Virus record (IMG/VR): IMGVR_UViG_3300015202_000028
Span: 1 to 37,047 of that record
Direction: 5' to 3' (one strand)
Source: a virus
Length of the DNA stretch: 37,047 nucleotides
In this document: positions 3,696 to 36,018 of the stretch, piece after piece
Layout: each line of letters begins with the position of its first letter
Position numbering within the stretch: position 1 is the first letter of the stretch
Translations under genes and position numbers: made by a program
Notes under the pieces: generated by a model
The model's input: the letters and a program-made list of their open reading frames with translations, nothing else
The model's database searches: none
Told to the model about the DNA's origin: nothing

Positions 3696-3800
3696 TTGAA
3701 CCTCCCCACACCTAAAGGCGGGGGATTCCTGAAGGGGCTCACGCACACCTCTCGAGGCTCGTTCCGAGCCCGACAATTAGAGTGTTGATCGCAGCGTTTA
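3695..3800 (-). ncRNA. Candidate omega (right-end) guide RNA of TnpB
   Basis: In IS200/IS605 elements the right end overlapping the 3' part of tnpB yields an RNA whose last part copies the flanking DNA and guides TnpB. Here the minus strand from about 3800 holds a GC-rich hairpin (GGGCTCGGAACGAGCC), then the CCCC/GGGG hairpin and the terminal GGTTCAAC at 3695. The guide would start with CGATCACCGACAAACAG. Limits are estimated and expression is not shown. Confidence 0.4.
3704..3733 (+). repeat. 30-bp subterminal direct repeat of the IS (copy at 3704-3733 and 5232-5261)
   Basis: The two copies are identical over 30 bp, beginning CCCCACACC and ending GATTCCTGAA. Each folds into a short hairpin with a CCCC/GGGG stem. 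The flanking bases differ on both sides. Confidence 0.85.
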
Positions 3801-4782
3801 TATCGCGATCATGTTGGACTCCACAGTCCGAACACTCCCATTGTCTTACCTGTAAGCCTGAAATACCTGTAGGTCCATTTTTGGACAAACAGGCATGACA
3901 AGTCATAGTGGAATATTTAGAATCAACTTCGATGTATTTCCTATTGCTAATACTGCATTTATAGGACAACATTTGCCTTAGTTGATAGTGGCCAGCTTCT
4001 GCCACTGATTTGCCGTATTTCTTTGCTATACCTTTTATGTTATCTTTAGAAAACACAATAGTATCATATTCTTGTACAAGTTTGTGAGAAAGTTTGTGAT
4101 TTTCATCTTTACGTCTATTTTTAATTCTTTCTTGTAAACGAGCAGTTAATTTCTTGTCCTTACCTCTTTGCGCTTGAGCTAATCTATTTTGCCTTTTTTT
4201 AAAATGCTTTATAGTGTCTATTTTTACGCCATTTGAAAGTGTTAAGTTAGTTTTATATCCGGGATCGATTCCAACTTTACCTTCCCCGTTTGGTAAGATT
4301 ACATTCGACTTGGAATCTATAAACAAACAAAGATACCAACCTGAAGCTCTTTTAACTATACGTCCGCACTTAATTTTTCCTTGAGGGATGTCTTGCTTAT
4401 GATACCGAATTAAACCCAGCATTGGAATTCTGACACGGCCTTCTGTAGGGTATTTTATAGAGTCAGGAAAAGGAATTGATGCTAATTTATTTCTAACACC
4501 CTTAAATCTAGGTTTTTTTCCAATTTTTTTGAAGCAACGTTGCCAAGCTGTATGTCCCATTTTTAAAATAGCTTGTAAAGTATGTGATGGAATTTCCAAT
4601 TTTTTTGAGTGATTGGCTAATAGATTAACAAAATCAAATTCTTTGTGGTAAATTCCATGTTTAGCATCATACCCTATTTTAGATATACCCCAGTTCCATA
4701 CGCGAGTAAGCGATAACAACCACGAATTAAGTTTAACTTCCTGTTTTTTGTTGATGCGTAGTTTAATTTGCGTCTGTATCAT
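3739..4782 (-). CDS. tnpB: TnpB (IS605 OrfB) RNA-guided nuclease-like protein
   Basis: A 347-residue TnpB: N-terminal wedge/recognition region, RuvC-I with GIDPGYK (Asp173), a long basic helix, RuvC-II, a four-cysteine zinc knuckle (Cys295, 298, 317, 320) and RuvC-III with HDRDINAA (Asp327). The RuvC-II segment reads TIVFSKDNIKG at 241-251, where most TnpB proteins have a catalytic Glu (pattern vvEdLnvkgM); Ser245 sits there. Glu262 in the following helix might replace it, as catalytic rearrangements are known among TnpB/Cas12 relatives, or the nuclease may be inactive. The gene overlaps tnpA by 4 bp (ATGA). TnpB normally cuts the empty donor site to help the element persist. Confidence 0.93.
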   Translation of the reverse strand: MIQTQIKLRINKKQEVKLNSWLLSLTRVWNWGISKIGYDAKHGIYHKEFDFVNLLANHSKKLEIPSHTLQAILKMGHTAWQRCFKKIGKKPRFKGVRNKLASIPFPDSIKYPTEGRVRIPMLGLIRYHKQDIPQGKIKCGRIVKRASGWYLCLFIDSKSNVILPNGEGKVGIDPGYKTNLTLSNGVKIDTIKHFKKRQNRLAQAQRGKDKKLTARLQERIKNRRKDENHKLSHKLVQEYDTIVFSKDNIKGIAKKYGKSVAEAGHYQLRQMLSYKCSISNRKYIEVDSKYSTMTCHACLSKNGPTGISGLQVRQWECSDCGVQHDRDINAAINTLIVGLGTSLERCA

Positions 4783-5174
4783 ATTTTTTGCTGATCTTCT
4801 ACGTATTTTTTAATGACATCTAAAGAAGCCCCACCAACAGTGGACACAAAATACGAGTTAGTCCAAAGACTCGGTAAACGTGATTTGACGGATTTGTAAG
4901 TTTTTCTTAATGTATGAGAACTTAAACATTTAATTTCTTTAATTAATCTATGTATTCCGTATTGCGGATCTACTTCTACAAGTAAATGGACATGATCGAG
5001 CATTAATTCTAATGCTATAATATCACATTTTCTTTTAGAACAAACGTCATGAATAATTAATTTTAAATGAGCTTGTATTGGATCATCCAGCACTTTTCTT
5101 CTGTATTTTGTACACCACACCACATGATATTTACACGAATAAACTATATTATTGTTAGATTTAAATTTAGGCAT
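4779..5174 (-). CDS. tnpA: TnpA, Y1 HUH transposase of IS200/IS605
   Basis: This 131-residue protein has the usual length of IS200 TnpA. It begins with the typical YSCKYHVVWCTKYRRKVL segment, carries the metal-binding HVH at 61-63 (LDHVHLLVEV) and the nucleophilic Tyr124 in the C-terminal helix (DVIKKYVEDQQ). All key residues are present, so it could be active. It moves the element as single-stranded DNA by cutting near the hairpins at the ends. No strong ribosome site is seen ahead of ATG 5174. Confidence 0.93.
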   Translation of the reverse strand: MPKFKSNNNIVYSCKYHVVWCTKYRRKVLDDPIQAHLKLIIHDVCSKRKCDIIALELMLDHVHLLVEVDPQYGIHRLIKEIKCLSSHTLRKTYKSVKSRLPSLWTNSYFVSTVGGASLDVIKKYVEDQQKI

Positions 5175-9736: not shown

Positions 9737-10135
9737 ATGGCAAGACCGCTAAAAGCAATCAATTGGGATTTAGTAGAATTATATGCTAAATCAGGATGTA
9801 CACAAAAAGAAATCGCAGATAGTTTACATATCCACAGAGAAACATTAGCTGATAGAGTAAAAGAAAAATACGGAATGGATTACTCGACCTTCTCGACTTA
9901 TTTTTATAGTGAGGGAGATATTTTATTAAAAGCACAGCAATTTCAGAAAGCTATGAAGGGTTATTGGCAAGCTTTGATGTGGTTAGGTAAAGTAAGATTA
10001 GGACAAAAAGAACCCGAAAGCGTCATGAATTTAGCAGCTAATCAGACTCAATTAGATCAATCGCATCGCATCATGGAATTAGAACATCAACTTTCAGAGT
10101 TAAAAGCTAATGCCAACCAGCCCAAAACAGAATAA
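9737..10135 (+). CDS. terS: Small terminase subunit (TerS)
   Basis: A 132-residue protein. I place the start at ATG 9737 (MARPLKAINWDLVELYAKSG) because it matches small terminase N-termini; the frame is open back to 9689 but that leader is not conserved in type, and neither start has a good ribosome site. Residues 5-45 are the DNA-binding helix-turn-helix (GCTQKEIADSLHIHRETLADRV). The centre has KAQQFQKAMKGYWQALMWLGKVRLGQKEPE, the usual oligomerisation core, and the tail is a short coiled coil. It recognises the packaging site and feeds DNA to TerL, whose gene overlaps it by 26 bp. A TATAAT lies at 9672-9677 without a good -35 box. Confidence 0.8.
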   Translation: MARPLKAINWDLVELYAKSGCTQKEIADSLHIHRETLADRVKEKYGMDYSTFSTYFYSEGDILLKAQQFQKAMKGYWQALMWLGKVRLGQKEPESVMNLAANQTQLDQSHRIMELEHQLSELKANANQPKTE

Positions 10136-11819
10136 ATCATTTTGTGAAGCTACTCATAGATTCAATATCTGGGTGGGAGCCGTATCATCTGGAAAGACAT
10201 ATTCAAGCATCGAAAGACTTATCTACGATCTAAAGAATGGCCCTCGCAATGAAGATGGTGGTGGCGATGCTATGATTATTGGCGTTAACCGTACATCAAT
10301 ACAACGTAATTTGCTCACACACTTATACAGAAGGCTAGGTTTCCCATGTCCGACAGAGAAAGCCCAAATGTCCCGTTTGTATGGTCGCGATGTGTGGTTT
10401 GTGGGTGCCCCCGATGTCTCGGCCGTCTCGACGATCCAAGGGTCGACTCTCGCTCTTGCTTATGTGGACGAAGCTACAAATCTACCAGAACCATTTTGGA
10501 AGATGCTGGAATCTCGTTTGAGAGTCCCTGGAGCAAAACTATTAGCGACCTGCAACCCTGAAGGTCCAGCCCATTGGCTTAAGAAAGACTATATTGATAA
10601 ACCGGGCTTAGACCTTGCTTGCTGGAACTTCAATCTTGAAGATAACCCCATACTTGATGATAAGTATAAACAGCAGCTGAAAGCCTCGTATACAGGTATG
10701 TGGTACAACAGATATATATTAGGAGAATGGGCACTTGCTCATGGGGCTATTTATGATAACTATGACAAAGACAACGAATATGAAAATCCATTCCCTGCCC
10801 CTAACTATTATGTCGTTGGTGTCGATTATGGGACTACCAATGCAACAGCTGCGGTACTTTGTGCCGTTACACCCAATAAGTGGCCACAGATCAGAGTCGA
10901 AGCGGAATATTACTATGATTCAACTAAGAAAGGACGTAGCAAAACCGATCAAGAACTTGTTAGAGATATCAAAGATTTTATTGGTTATAAGAACGTATCT
11001 GCTATTTATGTGGACCCTGCAGCCGCGTCCTTCAAAATTGCTCTTAGACAATCTGAACTCCCGGTATTGGATGCAAATAACGATGTTTTACTTGGAATTA
11101 AAATATGCTCAAAGTTTATTGGAGGGAAAAATATAGTCATTCAAAAAGGATGCACTGTCTTAAGAGAACACTTACAATCATATTCTTGGGATTCTAAGGC
11201 AGCCGATCGAGGCGAAGATAAGCCAGTGAAGAAGAACGATCATATCTGTGTCACAGGTGATACAAAAGTTATGCTTGGTTGTGGAAATGTTGAAATAAAA
11301 CATCTTGTCGGTGATCTTAAAGGTTTAGTAGTAGCCTATAAACATGAATATGGATTTCTGCTTGCTCCTTTATTTCTAGGAAAAAAAACTGGAGAGAATA
11401 AAAAGATTCTTAAACTTACTCTTGAAAATGGTAAAACCTTGAAAGCAACACCCGATCATAAAGTAATGACAAAACGCGGATTCATTGAGATACAATTTCT
11501 ACTGACTAGCGATGAGGTTTTGTGTTATGAAAAACAAGGTGTTGTAGCAGGTCATGCGGGTGTATACTCCGCAGTCAAAAGCATTGAAGAATGCGAACCT
11601 GAAGATGTTTACTGTATTTCTGTTCCTTCAACCGGAAACTTTGTTGCTAATGGAATGGTGATAGCGAATTGCGACGCATTAAGATATGCCATTGTTTCAG
11701 CCTTTCCCCGAGGAGAATTCAGTCATCCCGATGAAAATATTTCTTATGATCAATTACGAAAACAAGTTTTTGGATCAAATGATATGTACGATCAATTTAA
11801 TTCAAGTTTAGGACTATGA
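10110..11819 (+). CDS. terL: Large terminase subunit (TerL) interrupted by a mini-intein
   Basis: The 569-residue precursor holds a 428-residue terminase and a 141-residue intein. The ATPase half has Walker A GAVSSGKT (23-30) and Walker B ALAYVDEATN; the RNase H-like nuclease has Asp239 (VGVDYGTT), Asp302 (YVDPAA) and Asp522 (CDALRY). Residues 380-520 are the intein, cutting the usual DHxxDALRY nuclease motif between Ile379 and Cys521. Without splicing the nuclease site cannot form, so packaging should depend on it. After splicing the motif reads DHICDALRYA. TerL drives DNA into the procapsid and cuts it. It overlaps terS by 26 bp. Confidence 0.92.
   Translation: MPTSPKQNKSFCEATHRFNIWVGAVSSGKTYSSIERLIYDLKNGPRNEDGGGDAMIIGVNRTSIQRNLLTHLYRRLGFPCPTEKAQMSRLYGRDVWFVGAPDVSAVSTIQGSTLALAYVDEATNLPEPFWKMLESRLRVPGAKLLATCNPEGPAHWLKKDYIDKPGLDLACWNFNLEDNPILDDKYKQQLKASYTGMWYNRYILGEWALAHGAIYDNYDKDNEYENPFPAPNYYVVGVDYGTTNATAAVLCAVTPNKWPQIRVEAEYYYDSTKKGRSKTDQELVRDIKDFIGYKNVSAIYVDPAAASFKIALRQSELPVLDANNDVLLGIKICSKFIGGKNIVIQKGCTVLREHLQSYSWDSKAADRGEDKPVKKNDHICVTGDTKVMLGCGNVEIKHLVGDLKGLVVAYKHEYGFLLAPLFLGKKTGENKKILKLTLENGKTLKATPDHKVMTKRGFIEIQFLLTSDEVLCYEKQGVVAGHAGVYSAVKSIEECEPEDVYCISVPSTGNFVANGMVIANCDALRYAIVSAFPRGEFSHPDENISYDQLRKQVFGSNDMYDQFNSSLGL
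11247..11669 (+). other. Mini-intein (141 residues) inside TerL
   Basis: Splicing block A is CVTGDTKVML with Cys1; block B is GKTLKATPDHKVMT with the conserved Thr and His; block F is VYCISVPSTGNFVANG; block G is MVIAN followed by extein Cys+1. Between B and F there is no LAGLIDADG or HNH domain, and the length of 141 residues equals minimal inteins. The penultimate residue is Ala instead of the usual His, a variation seen in some active inteins. The insertion point is the catalytic third-aspartate motif of the nuclease, a typical highly conserved intein site. Confidence 0.92.
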
Positions 11820-16821: not shown

Positions 16822-17123
16822 ATGTCATTCTCTACCGGTATTACCGGCATTCAGAATATGGCTCCCGAGCTGCCAGTACAAGCATCGGAAGACTTACTTT
16901 CCACGCCCATGTTCAATTTAATTCATTCTTTTGGAGTCGATCTTCATCATTCTGAAAGTTATATCGGTAAAACAACTCGTATGAGTCGTTTTGAGCGTTT
17001 ATCTACAGATGGTGGACAGTTAGATGGTTCTGGAATAGATCCAGCATCTGAAGTGCCAGTTCGTACAGACATTGATGCGACCATGGAGATTTATGCTAAG
17101 TCTATTGTTACAAACGAGCAGGT
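16822..17123 (+). CDS. Major capsid protein (N4-gp56-like), exon 1
   Basis: ATG 16822 follows GAGGTG. Exon 1 codes for 100 residues and two bases of codon 101, ending EIYAKSIVTNEQ plus GT. Joined to exon 2 at 17912 it gives a 322-residue protein reading TNEQVVLYENSKTLTKFTAL across the junction, which is the expected pattern of the N4-gp56 capsid family. Without splicing, the frame runs into the intron and stops at 17190 after 22 foreign residues (ICTACFKFSVNN and others). The protein builds the head shell. Exon end was set by the U-G pair of the P1 helix. Confidence 0.9.
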
Positions 17124-17911
17124 TAAAATATGCACAGCCTGCTTTAAATTTTCGGTAAATAACTTGGAAAGCCTAAGGATTGCTGCTTAAGCAATTTATG
17201 GTAACCAGAGGCAAGACTTAATTATCTAAGGAGCCACGGCGAGCATGAAGAGATCTAAGTTCAGAAACAAGTTTGACACGAAGTTCAGTGACCTCAGGAA
17301 GGACACTTGGGCCACGTTGTCCAATTTTATAAAATTTGAGCTTAGAGGTTTTAATCATTTCCATAACGATTTCAATCTGTCTCTTTTTTATGATCGCGAA
17401 GGGCAATATGAGTTCGCAAATATGAAAAAGAAGTTCACCAGTGCACTGCCATTTATAGACTTTTTTAAGACTATTTATAGGAGTTTGTTTTCTGGTGTAA
17501 GTATATTTTTTGCTTCCAAAAGTATTGACAAGCCAATCAATAAGGCATTCGTCAGTACTGCTAATGATCAAATAGGTGGTATATTGAGGAGTTCCAGTTT
17601 TACCAGAGGCATAATTGCCACTAGTCAAAGCCCCTTCACCATCAACGATTCCAGCCATATAAGCAATAACAGTATCTGGGTAAGACTTTCTAACATATTT
17701 GAATCTCATATAAATCCTATTGTAAACGTTGGTATATACGTTAATGATAACATAATTAAGGTTTAGCCGCAACGACTAACCCCGAAAACACTAGAAATAG
17801 TGAAGTGATAGTCTGAACAGTGGTGAAAGCCATTGAGTGGGGATTAACAAGACCCACCGCCTGAAAAGGTCAGTAGGCCCAGCTATGGGACCGAAAGTAA
17901 CAGTCGTAATG
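17124..17911 (+). ncRNA. Group I self-splicing intron (788 nt) in the capsid gene
   Basis: P1: exon end GAGCAGGT (17116-17123) pairs with GCCTGCTT (17137-17144), with the required U-G wobble at the 5' splice site. P10: the first exon-2 bases TGTGC (17912-17916) pair with GCACA (17132-17136), directly next to the P1 guide. P7: GACTA (17774-17778) pairs with TAGTC (17809-17813), enclosing P8 CACTA-GAAA-TAGTG (17789-17802). P9-type hairpins follow (GTGGG/CCCAC and GGTC/GGACC). The intron ends in G (17911), as required. It contains a homing endonuclease gene on the opposite strand. Confidence 0.92.
17218..17709 (-). CDS. LAGLIDADG homing endonuclease, antisense within the group I intron
   Basis: A 163-residue protein. 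ATG 17709 is chosen over 17772 because AGGA lies 7 nt upstream and the longer leader is hydrophobic and asparagine-rich without a site. Residues 15-30 hold the motif IAYMAGIVDGEGALTSG, with the catalytic acidic residue; one motif means it should act as a homodimer. A second part (WLVNTFGSKKYTYTRKQT, YKWQCTGELLFHICELILPF) is typical of the family's beta-sheet saddle. The enzyme would cut intronless capsid genes and spread the intron. Placement on the strand opposite to the intron is unusual: it cannot be translated from the spliced precursor and needs its own promoter. Confidence 0.9.
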   Translation of the reverse strand: MRFKYVRKSYPDTVIAYMAGIVDGEGALTSGNYASGKTGTPQYTTYLIISSTDECLIDWLVNTFGSKKYTYTRKQTPINSLKKVYKWQCTGELLFHICELILPFAIIKKRQIEIVMEMIKTSKLKFYKIGQRGPSVLPEVTELRVKLVSELRSLHARRGSLDN

Positions 17912-18578
17912 TGTGCTTTACGAGAATAGTAAGACGTTAACAAAGTTCACAGCATTGCTAGGACAATGGTTAAGAGAAAAAGAAGATCTTTTAATGAGAG
18001 ACTTATTTTCAAGTTCTGTAAGTTATATAAACGCTACAGGTGGTTTGAACGGCGATCAGCCAAGTAATATCAGCTTAAACGACGTAAATAACATTGAAAA
18101 CATCCTACTAGGCAATGATGCTCGTAGTATGCTTACAAACCTAGAAGCGACTTTAAAATTCGCAACAGGTGGTGTTAGGGATGCGTTTATTGCGCTTGCA
18201 AATACAAACTTGTGCGCTGACCTTCAAAAAGTTCAAGGCGTCCTTTTGAAATCTGCATATCCAACGCAAGAAGGGATCAGACCAGAAGAATATTGTTCTA
18301 TCTCTAGATTCAGATTTTTTGTTTCATCTAAAGCTGCAAAGACTCCTGGAATATCTATGAAAGGGAACACTGTCTATACAATACCTATGTATGGATTGGA
18401 AGCTGCTTCGAAAATCGAGCAGAACAATTATACCGCAGTTATTGGTTATCGTCCTCCTTGGGTCGTTTCTGCCGTAGCTCAAAACAGCCAGCTTTACGCC
18501 AAGTTTGCGATTGCAAGAGCAATCACTAACCAAAACTGGATATCTGGTTTGAATGTAACAACCTTCCAACCATCATAA
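17912..18578 (+). CDS. Major capsid protein (N4-gp56-like), exon 2
   Basis: Exon 2 completes codon 101 and adds 221 residues. It holds LGQWLREKEDLLMRDLFSS, NATGGLNGDQPS, ILLGNDARSMLTNLEATLKF, RPEEYCSISRFRFFVSS and the C-terminal GYRPPWVVSAVAQNSQLYAK, in the order expected of N4-gp56-type capsid proteins (HK97 fold). A GTG at 17913 could begin a separate frame but has no ribosome site, and the protein would lack its N-arm. The gene is followed by an AAGGAG site for the next head protein. Confidence 0.9.
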
Positions 18579-32349: not shown

Positions 32350-32616
32350 ATGGATTTATTTGAATCTAAAAATTTATTTAGAAATATGCATCCTGATAAA
32401 AATTTGACTTTTTCTTTCGATGATAAATGTATTCGAAAATGCGAAATAGTTTTTACAGATGGAAAGCCTAATGAAATAAATCATGTAGAAAATGATAAGG
32501 TAAAAATTTTTATTGAAGATCAAGAAGCCTTTTATGTTCCTATTGATTCTCATCGAGAATGTTGTGATATTGAATTTATTCTGAGTAAAATTCAAAATAA
32601 TGCATCGATTTCATGA
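32350..32616 (+). CDS. Small hypothetical protein after the spike
   Basis: An 88-residue protein starting one base after the spike stop, so it is co-translated. It is acidic with beta character (LTFSFDDKCIRKCEIVFTDG, VKIFIEDQEAFYVPIDSHRE). Position suggests a spike or fibre assembly chaperone, but no family is recognised. Its end overlaps the convergent glycosyltransferase gene by 25 bp. Confidence 0.6.
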   Translation: MDLFESKNLFRNMHPDKNLTFSFDDKCIRKCEIVFTDGKPNEINHVENDKVKIFIEDQEAFYVPIDSHRECCDIEFILSKIQNNASIS

Positions 32617-33413
32617 TTCATATCATGACCTGCTTTTATAATATCTTCTGGATTTACCCCCCATTTTTCATATCTGGGGGCTTTTATATTAAGTAAAAAC
32701 CATTCATCCCGAGCCCAATAATGATTTATTCTTAATATATCAATATATACGCCTGTATTTTGCATTCCTATAGCTTCATTATTTGTATTTACATGATAAA
32801 ATCCTGGTAAATATAAACAATAATGGGGATTTACGCATTTTTCCACACAATCAAGCCTAACAATTGATTTATAATATAAATTTCTAGAATGATCGAACGG
32901 TAATTTATATATTAATGATTTTAACAAAGATTGTCCCGGCTTTAAAAAAATTGATGATGTTCCATAGCATTGCCAATTTACACAAACACCAGAAGCTTTA
33001 GGGAAATACTTTTCTAAAGTCAAATAAATAGACTTATCTTTCATTGAAATCAAAAATTCATCGGTATCAATAATGGCAAGCCATTTTGTTTTTTCTTTTA
33101 AGAGTTCTATTGCATGATTATAAGCACCTGGTTGAACGGTAAAAGAAAAATATTCAAATTCATTTTTTTGTGTTTCTGATGGCCAATCAATCAAATCAAC
33201 AATATTTCTTTGAATGTAAGGTTTTAAAATTAATTCATAATCATCTGTGCTATTGTTATTATATAAAACAAAGTGTTCCACACCAACAGATAGGTGATGA
33301 TCAATCCATTCTTTGAGATAGGGTGATTCATTTTGAAATATAGTGGTAACACATACATTATAATTTGCTTCCAAAGACATAAATGTAAGCATAAATAAAA
33401 TTATTTTTAGCAT
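32592..33413 (-). CDS. Secreted GT92-type glycosyltransferase
   Basis: A 273-residue protein. ATG 33413 follows CAGGT and opens a signal peptide (MLKIILFMLTFMSLEA); the longer frame would overlap the lipoprotein gene and is rejected. The mature start NYNVCVTTIFQNESPYLKEW and HHLSVGVEHFVLYNNNSTDD is the hallmark of family 92 glycosyltransferases; the metal-binding DxD is DTDEF at 116-120. Cysteines in the C-terminal half (CVEKCVNPHYCLYLPGF) may form disulfides. It would act outside the cytoplasm, perhaps changing surface glycans to block other phages. It is cargo, transcribed against the late genes. Confidence 0.8.
   Translation of the reverse strand: MLKIILFMLTFMSLEANYNVCVTTIFQNESPYLKEWIDHHLSVGVEHFVLYNNNSTDDYELILKPYIQRNIVDLIDWPSETQKNEFEYFSFTVQPGAYNHAIELLKEKTKWLAIIDTDEFLISMKDKSIYLTLEKYFPKASGVCVNWQCYGTSSIFLKPGQSLLKSLIYKLPFDHSRNLYYKSIVRLDCVEKCVNPHYCLYLPGFYHVNTNNEAIGMQNTGVYIDILRINHYWARDEWFLLNIKAPRYEKWGVNPEDIIKAGHDMNHEIDALF
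32657..32685 (+). terminator. Possible terminator for the tail operon, inside the convergent gene
   Basis: CCCCC and GGGGG (within 32657-32680) form a stem with a 13-nt loop, followed by CTTTTAT on the plus strand, 40 bp after the stop of the 32350 gene. It sits in the coding end of the glycosyltransferase, so the match may be incidental. Confidence 0.35.
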
Positions 33414-33497
33414 TATATTACCTGTTAAATAAAAAAATTTTCTTGTAAAATTAAATTTAAAATATATAGTTTTTATCAAAATTTTTAAAGGTGATTT

Positions 33498-33692
33498 ATG
33501 AAACATATTTTTATAATTCCAATTTTGATTATGTTGGTTTCTTGCAATACCCTTCCACAATTATACCAAGCAGCAGAAGATATAGCAAATGATGATGCTT
33601 TGCAAGTTATAATCAGTCGTGAGGCTATTCAGAAGCAAACCGATGTAAATATTACGGTGGAAGTAAAAAATAACCAAATGACGATTAAGTAA
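33498..33692 (+). CDS. Small lipoprotein
   Basis: A 64-residue protein; AAAGGTGA precedes ATG 33498. The signal peptide MKHIFIIPILIMLVSCN has a lipobox LVSC with the acylated cysteine at 16, leaving a 49-residue chain (LPQLYQAAEDIANDDALQVI and a basic end). Small phage lipoproteins are often outer spanins that fuse membranes at lysis, but no inner spanin overlaps it. Surface exclusion is another option. Confidence 0.7.
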   Translation: MKHIFIIPILIMLVSCNTLPQLYQAAEDIANDDALQVIISREAIQKQTDVNITVEVKNNQMTIK

Positions 33693-34413: not shown

Positions 34414-35265
34414 TTAACTTGTAGTTATTCTCCAACTATTTATCGAGCCTTTTCTATAATTATCAAGATCTACATTTATTAATTCTGGAATCCTAGCATA
34501 TTCAACATTGCCTTTTCTATTAACCAGGCACAACGAAATACCGGCCCCCTTCGTATTTGACTCTCCACTTAAAAACACTAGCTGTTTTCGGATCTCCTCT
34601 TCTTCCTTTTCTAATTCTTTTATAGAATTTGTTAGGGACTTCCATTTCAAAGCACATTGTTGCCATAAATCATCATTCCTTTCAATATAGTCTCCTTCAT
34701 TAAGTTCAGGAGGTGTTTTGTTAATTAGACACTGATAAAATTTCTTTTCTTCGATAATCATTTTTTGTATGTATTCTTCATTTCTTAAAACTTCAACAAC
34801 AACACCATCTGCACCATCAAAGCTAAAATAATAAGCTGACTCTACATCACAAACATACATTTGATGTTGTAGTTGAGGGTAATAATGATCTGGAACCTTA
34901 CCTAAAAGAGCAATTGCATGGTCTTTAGATCCCGGACATTTTATTTCAACAATATGATTGCCACAATCGCTAATTCCATCTAATGAAGCCATAGCCCAAT
35001 CATTAATTACGACTTTTGGACTAACCTTTAGACCTGTTTTAATTTCAAATAAATCTCTTGCTATTGGTTCAAGATCAATACCTCTTTGCATTGCATCGTT
35101 TTTAAAGGTATTATTTTCCTCTGAAATCTTTTCATTATATAGCTGAAACCTTGTTTTCCAATGAGAAGCACCTAAAATCACAGCAGCATCAGTTGCAGTA
35201 ATTTTTGTTTTACGTAAGGCTAACCATTCAAGTGTGCCTTGCTCAATATCTAAACATGCGCCCAT
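34414..35265 (-). CDS. YqaJ-type viral recombinase (lambda exonuclease fold)
   Basis: A 283-residue protein; ATG 35265 follows AGGAGG. Motifs of the YqaJ/exonuclease family are complete: ITATDAAVILGAS, RGIDLEPIARDLFE, SLDG with Asp96, VEIKCPG with Glu107 and Lys109, and YYPQLQHQMYV. The last third is helical (LTNSIKELEKEEEEIRKQLV). It degrades one strand of linear DNA 5'-3' to give the single strand loaded by the Bet protein. Its ribosome site lies inside the end of the HNH gene, with a 16-bp overlap, so the HNH gene has settled tightly in this operon. Confidence 0.88.
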   Translation of the reverse strand: MGACLDIEQGTLEWLALRKTKITATDAAVILGASHWKTRFQLYNEKISEENNTFKNDAMQRGIDLEPIARDLFEIKTGLKVSPKVVINDWAMASLDGISDCGNHIVEIKCPGSKDHAIALLGKVPDHYYPQLQHQMYVCDVESAYYFSFDGADGVVVEVLRNEEYIQKMIIEEKKFYQCLINKTPPELNEGDYIERNDDLWQQCALKWKSLTNSIKELEKEEEEIRKQLVFLSGESNTKGAGISLCLVNRKGNVEYARIPELINVDLDNYRKGSINSWRITTS

Positions 35266-35840
35266 CTTTCCCTCCTAATAATCCTGCGAATGGTTTCTGG
35301 ATTCACTTGATAAATTTTTGCAATTTGTAAAAAAGTTACTTTTCCAGGAACATACATTGATCTAATTTCTTTAATTTGATTTTCGTTAAAAATCGATCCA
35401 TTTGCGGTTTCCCCTTTTAGAATTTTTGCAGGGATTTTTTTTCTTATAATGTCCTGAATGGCTCCTTGAGAAACGGAATATTTTTTTGCAATATTCCGTT
35501 GAGTTTCTCCTGAAAGATATGAGTTTATTATTTCTTCGTGAAATTCTTCTTTTATTTTTGTTTGTCCGTGAGAATTTCCATGGACATGTCTTTTTTTGTT
35601 TTTAGAATCTTGATAGTTGTCTTTGTGAGTTCCTAAAAATAAATGTTCTGGATTCACACATTTTCTATTGTCACACGAATGACAAACAAGAATTGCATTT
35701 GGAATGTTACCTTTATGTATTATCCATGAATACCTATGAGCAAAAAAAGTTTTATAGTTTGAGGAATATCTTCCATATCCATCGGGATTAACATATCCTT
35801 TCCAAATCCAACAGGAATTTGTTTTTTCAATTTTTGACAT
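35250..35840 (-). CDS. Free-standing HNH homing endonuclease
   Basis: A 196-residue protein; ATG 35840 (after GGAAAAATTT) is preferred, though ATG 35855 is possible. It opens with the zinc-type HNH_3 domain: CWIWKGYVNPDGYGRY, FAHRYSWIIHKGNIP, and LVCHSCDNRKCVNPEHLFLG with catalytic His pair and metal cysteines. Two helix-turn-helix units follow (GETQRNIAKKYSVSQGAIQD and TFLQIAKIYQVNPETIRRII) for DNA binding. It parts the bet operon between a small gene and the exonuclease gene, the usual habit of phage homing endonucleases, and overlaps both neighbours. Confidence 0.88.
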   Translation of the reverse strand: MSKIEKTNSCWIWKGYVNPDGYGRYSSNYKTFFAHRYSWIIHKGNIPNAILVCHSCDNRKCVNPEHLFLGTHKDNYQDSKNKKRHVHGNSHGQTKIKEEFHEEIINSYLSGETQRNIAKKYSVSQGAIQDIIRKKIPAKILKGETANGSIFNENQIKEIRSMYVPGKVTFLQIAKIYQVNPETIRRIIRRERWAHV

Positions 35841-36018
35841 AAATTTTTCCAGCATGATCTATTCTTTTTTTTAGATAATCTATTGTTTCAAATGACTGAG
35901 AAAGCTTCTGTGCTAAGATATTCATGACAAACAAATGCTTGTCATGAATATTAGGGACTTCGTCTAGCCATTCTGAGGCGTTTTCTTGAACTTCTCTAAT
36001 AATGTCTTCTGCAGTCAT
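35827..36018 (-). CDS. Small hypothetical protein in the recombination operon
   Basis: A 63-residue helical acidic protein (MTAEDIIREVQENASEWLDE, then HLFVMNILAQKLSQSFETID). It overlaps the bet stop by 4 bp (ATGA), so it was an original operon member. Its 3' end overlaps the HNH start, which could mean that the HNH insertion replaced some of its tail. Function unknown. Confidence 0.6.
   Translation of the reverse strand: MTAEDIIREVQENASEWLDEVPNIHDKHLFVMNILAQKLSQSFETIDYLKKRIDHAGKIYVKN

Follow-up and report, generated by a model that had tools for sequence, protein, structure and literature searches.

The major capsid protein gene of a 37-kb IMG/VR phage record (37,047 nt, analysed at full length and termed here the window) is interrupted by an insert. 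This insert is, on sequence grounds, a group I intron, with self-splicing itself predicted. Its P6 loop accommodates a LAGLIDADG homing endonuclease gene read from the opposite strand, and a long stop-free frame faces this gene on the capsid-coding strand (Table 1). When the two exons are joined in silico, exact removal of the intron restores a continuous capsid protein of 323 aa. The gene is uninterrupted at the intron site in ~70 of its 80 closest relatives. Elsewhere, the window codes for a terminase large subunit with an intein (10110-11819; Pfam Intein_splicing, 5e-12), an IS200/IS605-type pair (TnpA Y1 and TnpB, 3739-5174, minus strand) lying within the phage record, a Family 92 glycosyltransferase adjoining the tail fibre region (32592-33560, minus strand), and an HNH endonuclease (35250-35855, minus strand) flanked by RecE-like and RecT-like genes.

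Rfam detects no intron in the window at gathering score, the group I match to the insert being weak and below threshold, and the core was therefore established through covariation. The P3-P8/P4-P6 core is backed by covariation, compensatory changes being found in P3, P6, P8, and P9 across 21 such introns (insert removed); P1, P7, and the terminal G of the intron (G17911) are read directly from the sequence. The first intron-bearing partners (L002-L004) have the insertion at the identical capsid codon (NEQ-V), with capsid proteins just 35-40% identical, and L226 and L227 possess at the same site an intron without any gene. Short group I introns (214-226 nt) devoid of nuclease genes occupy two other capsid-gene sites in L005, L011, L064, and L062.

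Table 1. Coordinates of the capsid gene, its intron, and the elements inside the intron (window numbering).
Feature	Position	Strand	Remarks
Major capsid protein gene, exon 1	16822..17123	+	Ends ...NEQ-V, phase 2; spliced product collinear with uninterrupted relatives
Group I intron	17124..17911	+	788 nt; nuclease gene in P6 loop
Major capsid protein gene, exon 2	17912..18578	+	Based on the spliced product
P1	17117..17143	+	Exon AGCAGGU (17117-17123) with GCCUGCU (17137-17143), u.G at splice site; from sequence
P3, 5' strand UUUUCGG	17149..17155	+	Partner CCGAAAA, 17782-17788; covarying helix
P6, 5' strand GGC	17210..17212	+	Partner GCC, 17766-17768; insert between the two strands
P7, GACUA/UAGUC	17774..17813	+	17774-17778 / 17809-17813; encloses P3 3' strand and P8
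P8	17789-17793 / 17798-17802	+	Enclosed by P7
LAGLIDADG homing endonuclease gene	17218..17709	-	163 aa; runs counter to the capsid gene and its intron
Shine-Dalgarno AGGA of endonuclease gene	17715..17718	-	
Promoter-like site	17744..17772	-	-35 TTGCGG (17772-17767), 17 nt, -10 TATCAT (17749-17744)
Stop-free sense frame	17245..17766	+	173 codons, in codon register with endonuclease gene; AAGGAG motif before; product unconstrained

A different insertion, of 28-48 nt, directly precedes the intron in L093, L098, L099, L100, L101, L102, and L103, and L096 is similar. It lies on the minus strand of these records (in L102, from ~5803 of the reverse complement), flanked in the capsid gene by TTTTACGG and ..AACGAGCAGGT, and its length is often no multiple of three. 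It pairs with both of its flanks (TACGG/CCGTA and GTTTAnnnn/nnnnTTAAAC); in ~30 other capsid genes, the spacer has a constant length of 16 nt. This insertion may act in translational bypass or be a tiny spliced remnant.

The endonuclease gene and its orientation

The first-pass annotation had proposed an opposite-strand LAGLIDADG gene of 163 residues with the motif MAGIVDGEG, which is confirmed by translation, by PHROG and profile matches, and by the AlphaFold2 fold. The motif occupies residues 18-26 of the translation, and its residues G20, G24, E25, and G26 are invariant in 43 nuclease sequences. PHROG_5046 (endonuclease) matches the window nuclease at 2e-21, and a profile from four relatives matches I-MsoI at 7e-10, as well as I-CreI; Pfam LAGLIDADG_1 matches two of four relatives and not the window nuclease (P0001). 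The AlphaFold2 model (pLDDT 88.9, pTM 0.83) has I-CreI, I-CvuI, and I-MsoI as top PDB matches, with TM values of ~0.7. By sequence and model, the gene encodes an I-CreI/I-MsoI-like LAGLIDADG endonuclease, with predicted cleavage activity. Matches in isolated phages are distant, at less than ~32% identity.

Relatives (L002-L004 and L085-L258) were gathered by using the nuclease and the intron core as scan queries. In the window clade, comprising ~95 distinct introns from uncultivated phages, the nuclease gene is antisense to the intron core wherever a core was found, whereas a related sister clade harbors a sense gene in the same P6 loop. On the tree, each orientation corresponds to a single clade, the two being separated by one change (support 98/88), so that a single orientation switch suffices. 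Dozens of divergent introns have this gene at the same place and in the same orientation, an arrangement that is thus not due to chance. Sequence comparison shows the nuclease to be under strong purifying selection, with dN/dS values of 0.07-0.24 in the compared pairs with estimable dS. The gene is hence not decaying, which excludes the decay across homologues that had been envisaged at first pass, together with a lack of minus-strand transcription, as an argument against a working antisense gene. The only clue to the hosts comes from two MAG contigs, assigned to different phyla.

The same annotation had credited the gene with a proper ribosome site and, by virtue of its orientation, with a promoter of its own, and both have found support. 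A Shine-Dalgarno sequence (SD) precedes the gene in 44 of 50 family members, 15 being expected. Of 45 non-redundant upstream regions, 23 contain a sigma70-like promoter with a score of 9/12 or more, compared to 3.9 expected, and shuffles (n=100) never gave more than 8. The window site, recognized by consensus and position, scores 8/12, which is below the cut-off of the general promoter scan, so that it was not listed there. Its position inside the intron is conserved across the family, and its -35 box overlaps the P6/P7 edge, abutting the ribozyme core. Given this ribosome site and the promoter recurring on the opposite strand, production of the nuclease would not require the capsid transcript.

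Stop-free sense frames and boxA elements

The sense frame lies in exact register with the nuclease gene, and its stops would therefore be TTA, CTA, and TCA codons of the nuclease. The window phage uses TTA/CTA for 57% of its Leu and TCA for 32% of its Ser; its nuclease gene has none of these codons inside the plus-strand ORF (0 stops, ~13 expected; probability ~1e-8). Among the 95 antisense introns, 79 ("open") possess a sense frame without internal stops, save two cases with 1-2, and the remaining 16 ("closed") have normal stop numbers. In 40 introns, the in-register frame has 0.00 stops per 100 codons. The corresponding densities are 5.6 and 10.0 for the remaining two sense frames, 5.97 for the control introns with boxA (see below), and 5.25 for those with sense nuclease genes. 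These densities disregard the first 5 and the last 25 nuclease codons, the latter because the sense frame begins within them. Stop avoidance is also absent from distant homologues without an intron core.

An SD followed by an ATG in register with the sense frame is present in 40 of 80 open introns, compared to 4 and 4 in the other two frames, a tenfold enrichment; half of the open introns have no SD before the frame. The frame usually remains open into the 3' core, with a median of 54 codons beyond the nuclease start, and extends over at least 200 codons, the length of capsid exon 2, in 17 of the 80. A frame read on from exon 1 was considered and rejected, the relative frame being 0, 1, or 2. 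In L111, L113, L116, L119, L129, L155, L185, and L247, the sense frame crosses the ribozyme 3' core and spans the length of exon 2, apparently in frame with it.

The many-stop antisense introns of the first set (L091, L093, L099, L100, L102, L103, L104, and L107) harbor GTTCTTTGAAATTTCTTGATTTTG or close variants in their 5' part, an element found in 8 of 8 closed introns versus none of 40 open and none of 17 sense ones. By sequence (GTTCTTTRANA, preceding untranslated RNA), it corresponds to the core of boxA, an element of rRNA antitermination; L107 also carries a boxC-like GTGTTGTG. Three later scans provided 47 further antisense introns as an out-of-sample test: 37 have neither internal stop nor boxA, 8 have at least three stops and all possess boxA, and two (L315 and L328) lack boxA despite 1-2 internal stops. 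Pooled, boxA is present in 16/16 closed and 0/79 open introns (Fisher p ~1e-16), with only three to six independent open/closed switches behind this correlation. L102 was assigned to the closed group (5 stops in total, 2 inner), and the second gene of L165 was left out of the boxA test for want of an adjacent intron core. The tree of the 95 genes displays six open/closed changes, boxA changing with each; just three open/closed pairs sit on well-supported branches, a number with which a sign test cannot reach significance.

The window intron itself has no boxA, and neither do the short introns without a long insert. A literature search for the TTCTTTGA form of boxA returned nothing useful, and the element was therefore checked on 16S loci: in fetched bacterial genomes, the GTTCTTTGA[AC]A core occurs in 16S-23S spacers as well as upstream of 16S genes, at a distance of 59-89 nt. 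The consensus GYTCTTTAANA is gamma-proteobacterial, and the Nus complex recruited to boxA prevents termination by Rho (PMC5725501). The intron element is, by its sequence, boxA antiterminator-like, with predicted NusB/NusE binding and a predicted block of Rho. A Rut-like C-richness was tried as a difference between open and closed introns and rejected: C over G is about equal in the sense RNA of both groups, and composition thus does not explain which device is used.

Transcription through the intron and alternative readings

The antisense gene would place ~500 nt of untranslated RNA in the capsid precursor, and Rho-type termination within this stretch would cut off exon 2 before splicing. Translation prevents Rho-dependent termination through covering the RNA. 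In open introns, ribosomes would traverse the meaningless sense frame, allowing RNA polymerase to reach the 3' core; in closed introns, a Nus complex recruited by boxA would carry the polymerase to the same point. Once past the insert, the polymerase would complete the 3' core and the intron could splice. Capsid genes without the intron would be cut by the nuclease at GAGCAGGT/TGTGC, and the intron would be copied into this junction. Since sense frame and boxA replace one another, they point to a single need, namely bringing the polymerase through the ~500 nt antisense gene. The antisense-nuclease intron quite probably escapes Rho-type termination via sense-frame translation or boxA, this need, the involvement of Rho, and homing all being inferred. 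In broader terms, these selfish phage introns with their antisense nuclease genes probably sustain host-gene transcription by two interchangeable devices, either a stop-free translated frame whose product is not selected or an rRNA-type boxA.

A long conserved ORF with a start site at the usual place of an intron protein could also signal dual coding, the sense frame giving a second functional protein such as a maturase. This is very improbable: the sense-frame dN/dS is ~1 in open and closed groups alike, codon agreement at conserved nuclease residues is no better than chance, AlphaFold2 yields no fold for the product with 29 relatives (pLDDT 59.6, pTM 0.27), and the introns lacking the frame have boxA instead. 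Stop avoidance and an enriched start site, combined with an unconserved product, indicate that translatability is selected rather than the product. The common ancestry of the open groups would fit a frame left as a by-product of codon bias or of nuclease gene history. However, only TTA, CTA, and TCA are avoided in a phage that itself favors TTA/CTA, and other A-ending codons are in use, so that the avoidance is not codon bias; furthermore, synonymous sites are saturated (dS mostly >1) yet stops have not returned to the open frames, and lineages that lose the frame are rich in stops. Such a by-product is extremely improbable.

The anatomy of the locus implies two RNAs complementary over ~500 nt, which ribosomes would separate. 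Sense translation or boxA might then mainly prevent duplexes between the precursor and the antisense nuclease mRNA, or shield the precursor from RNases, instead of countering Rho; this is unlikely, as boxA targets RNA polymerase and not duplex formation, yet exactly replaces the sense frame. The first-pass annotation had suggested that the antisense transcript could interfere with ribozyme folding. Since the promoter-like site is internal to the intron, base pairing of this transcript with the P6 insert is possible, and would extend to the 5' core if termination failed. However, the transcript would start in the P6 loop, beyond the 3' core, and conserved signals for regulation of this kind were not detected, making regulation or disturbance of folding as its main role quite improbable.

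Relation to known systems

Antisense nuclease genes have been described in slime-mould rDNA introns (PMC9548176, PMC3073962, PMC3679873). Those of Didymium (Dir.S956-2/I-DirII and Dsq.L2066/I-DsqI) resemble the window intron in having an opposite-strand gene with its own promoter (PMC9548176, PMC3073962). They differ by residing in eukaryotic nuclear rDNA and by their His-Cys nuclease, Pol II promoter, spliceosomal introns, and P9.2 insertion (Dsq.L2066), whereas the window family combines a phage protein gene, a LAGLIDADG nuclease, a sigma70-like promoter, a P6 insertion, and a sense-frame or boxA device. The I-CreI, I-MsoI, and I-CvuI genes are located in organelle rRNA introns. These enzymes share with the window nuclease the single-motif LAGLIDADG fold of ~160 aa, at 15-19% identity in structural alignments. 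In the td intron of phage T4, I-TevI is a GIY-YIG nuclease encoded in sense orientation, and the conflict opposes ribosomes to ribozyme folding. As in the window, td is a phage group I intron with a nuclease gene in the P6 region, and its expression is regulated (PMC3073962). The ShiLan element, an HNH gene hidden in a phage methylase gene, also combines a homing gene in another frame with an open host-facing frame (PMC11855218), but it lies on the same strand, no intron was found, and the host frame is read through into protein. The intron boxA shares its core with the rRNA leaders and spacers and differs from rrn boxA in its setting, a mobile intron in which an untranslated antisense gene follows.

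No antisense homing gene of a phage was found in the open literature, to which the search extended, nor among those examined of 50,697 annotated phages. For introns, the pair of alternative devices (boxA or a translated frame without a product) seems undescribed in the literature searched.

The stop-free sense frame and its boxA alternative, neither of them recognized at first pass, point to transcription through the intron as the actual conflict. The proposed mechanism would explain how an antisense gene persists inside an essential, highly expressed gene of bacterial type. Evolution would have repeatedly exchanged a product-less frame for boxA, a natural experiment on transcription-translation coupling, and this set of introns lends itself to phage experiments on Rho polarity and Nus antitermination. 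The mechanism further suggests that an ORF can be conserved opposite an antisense gene without specifying a functional protein.
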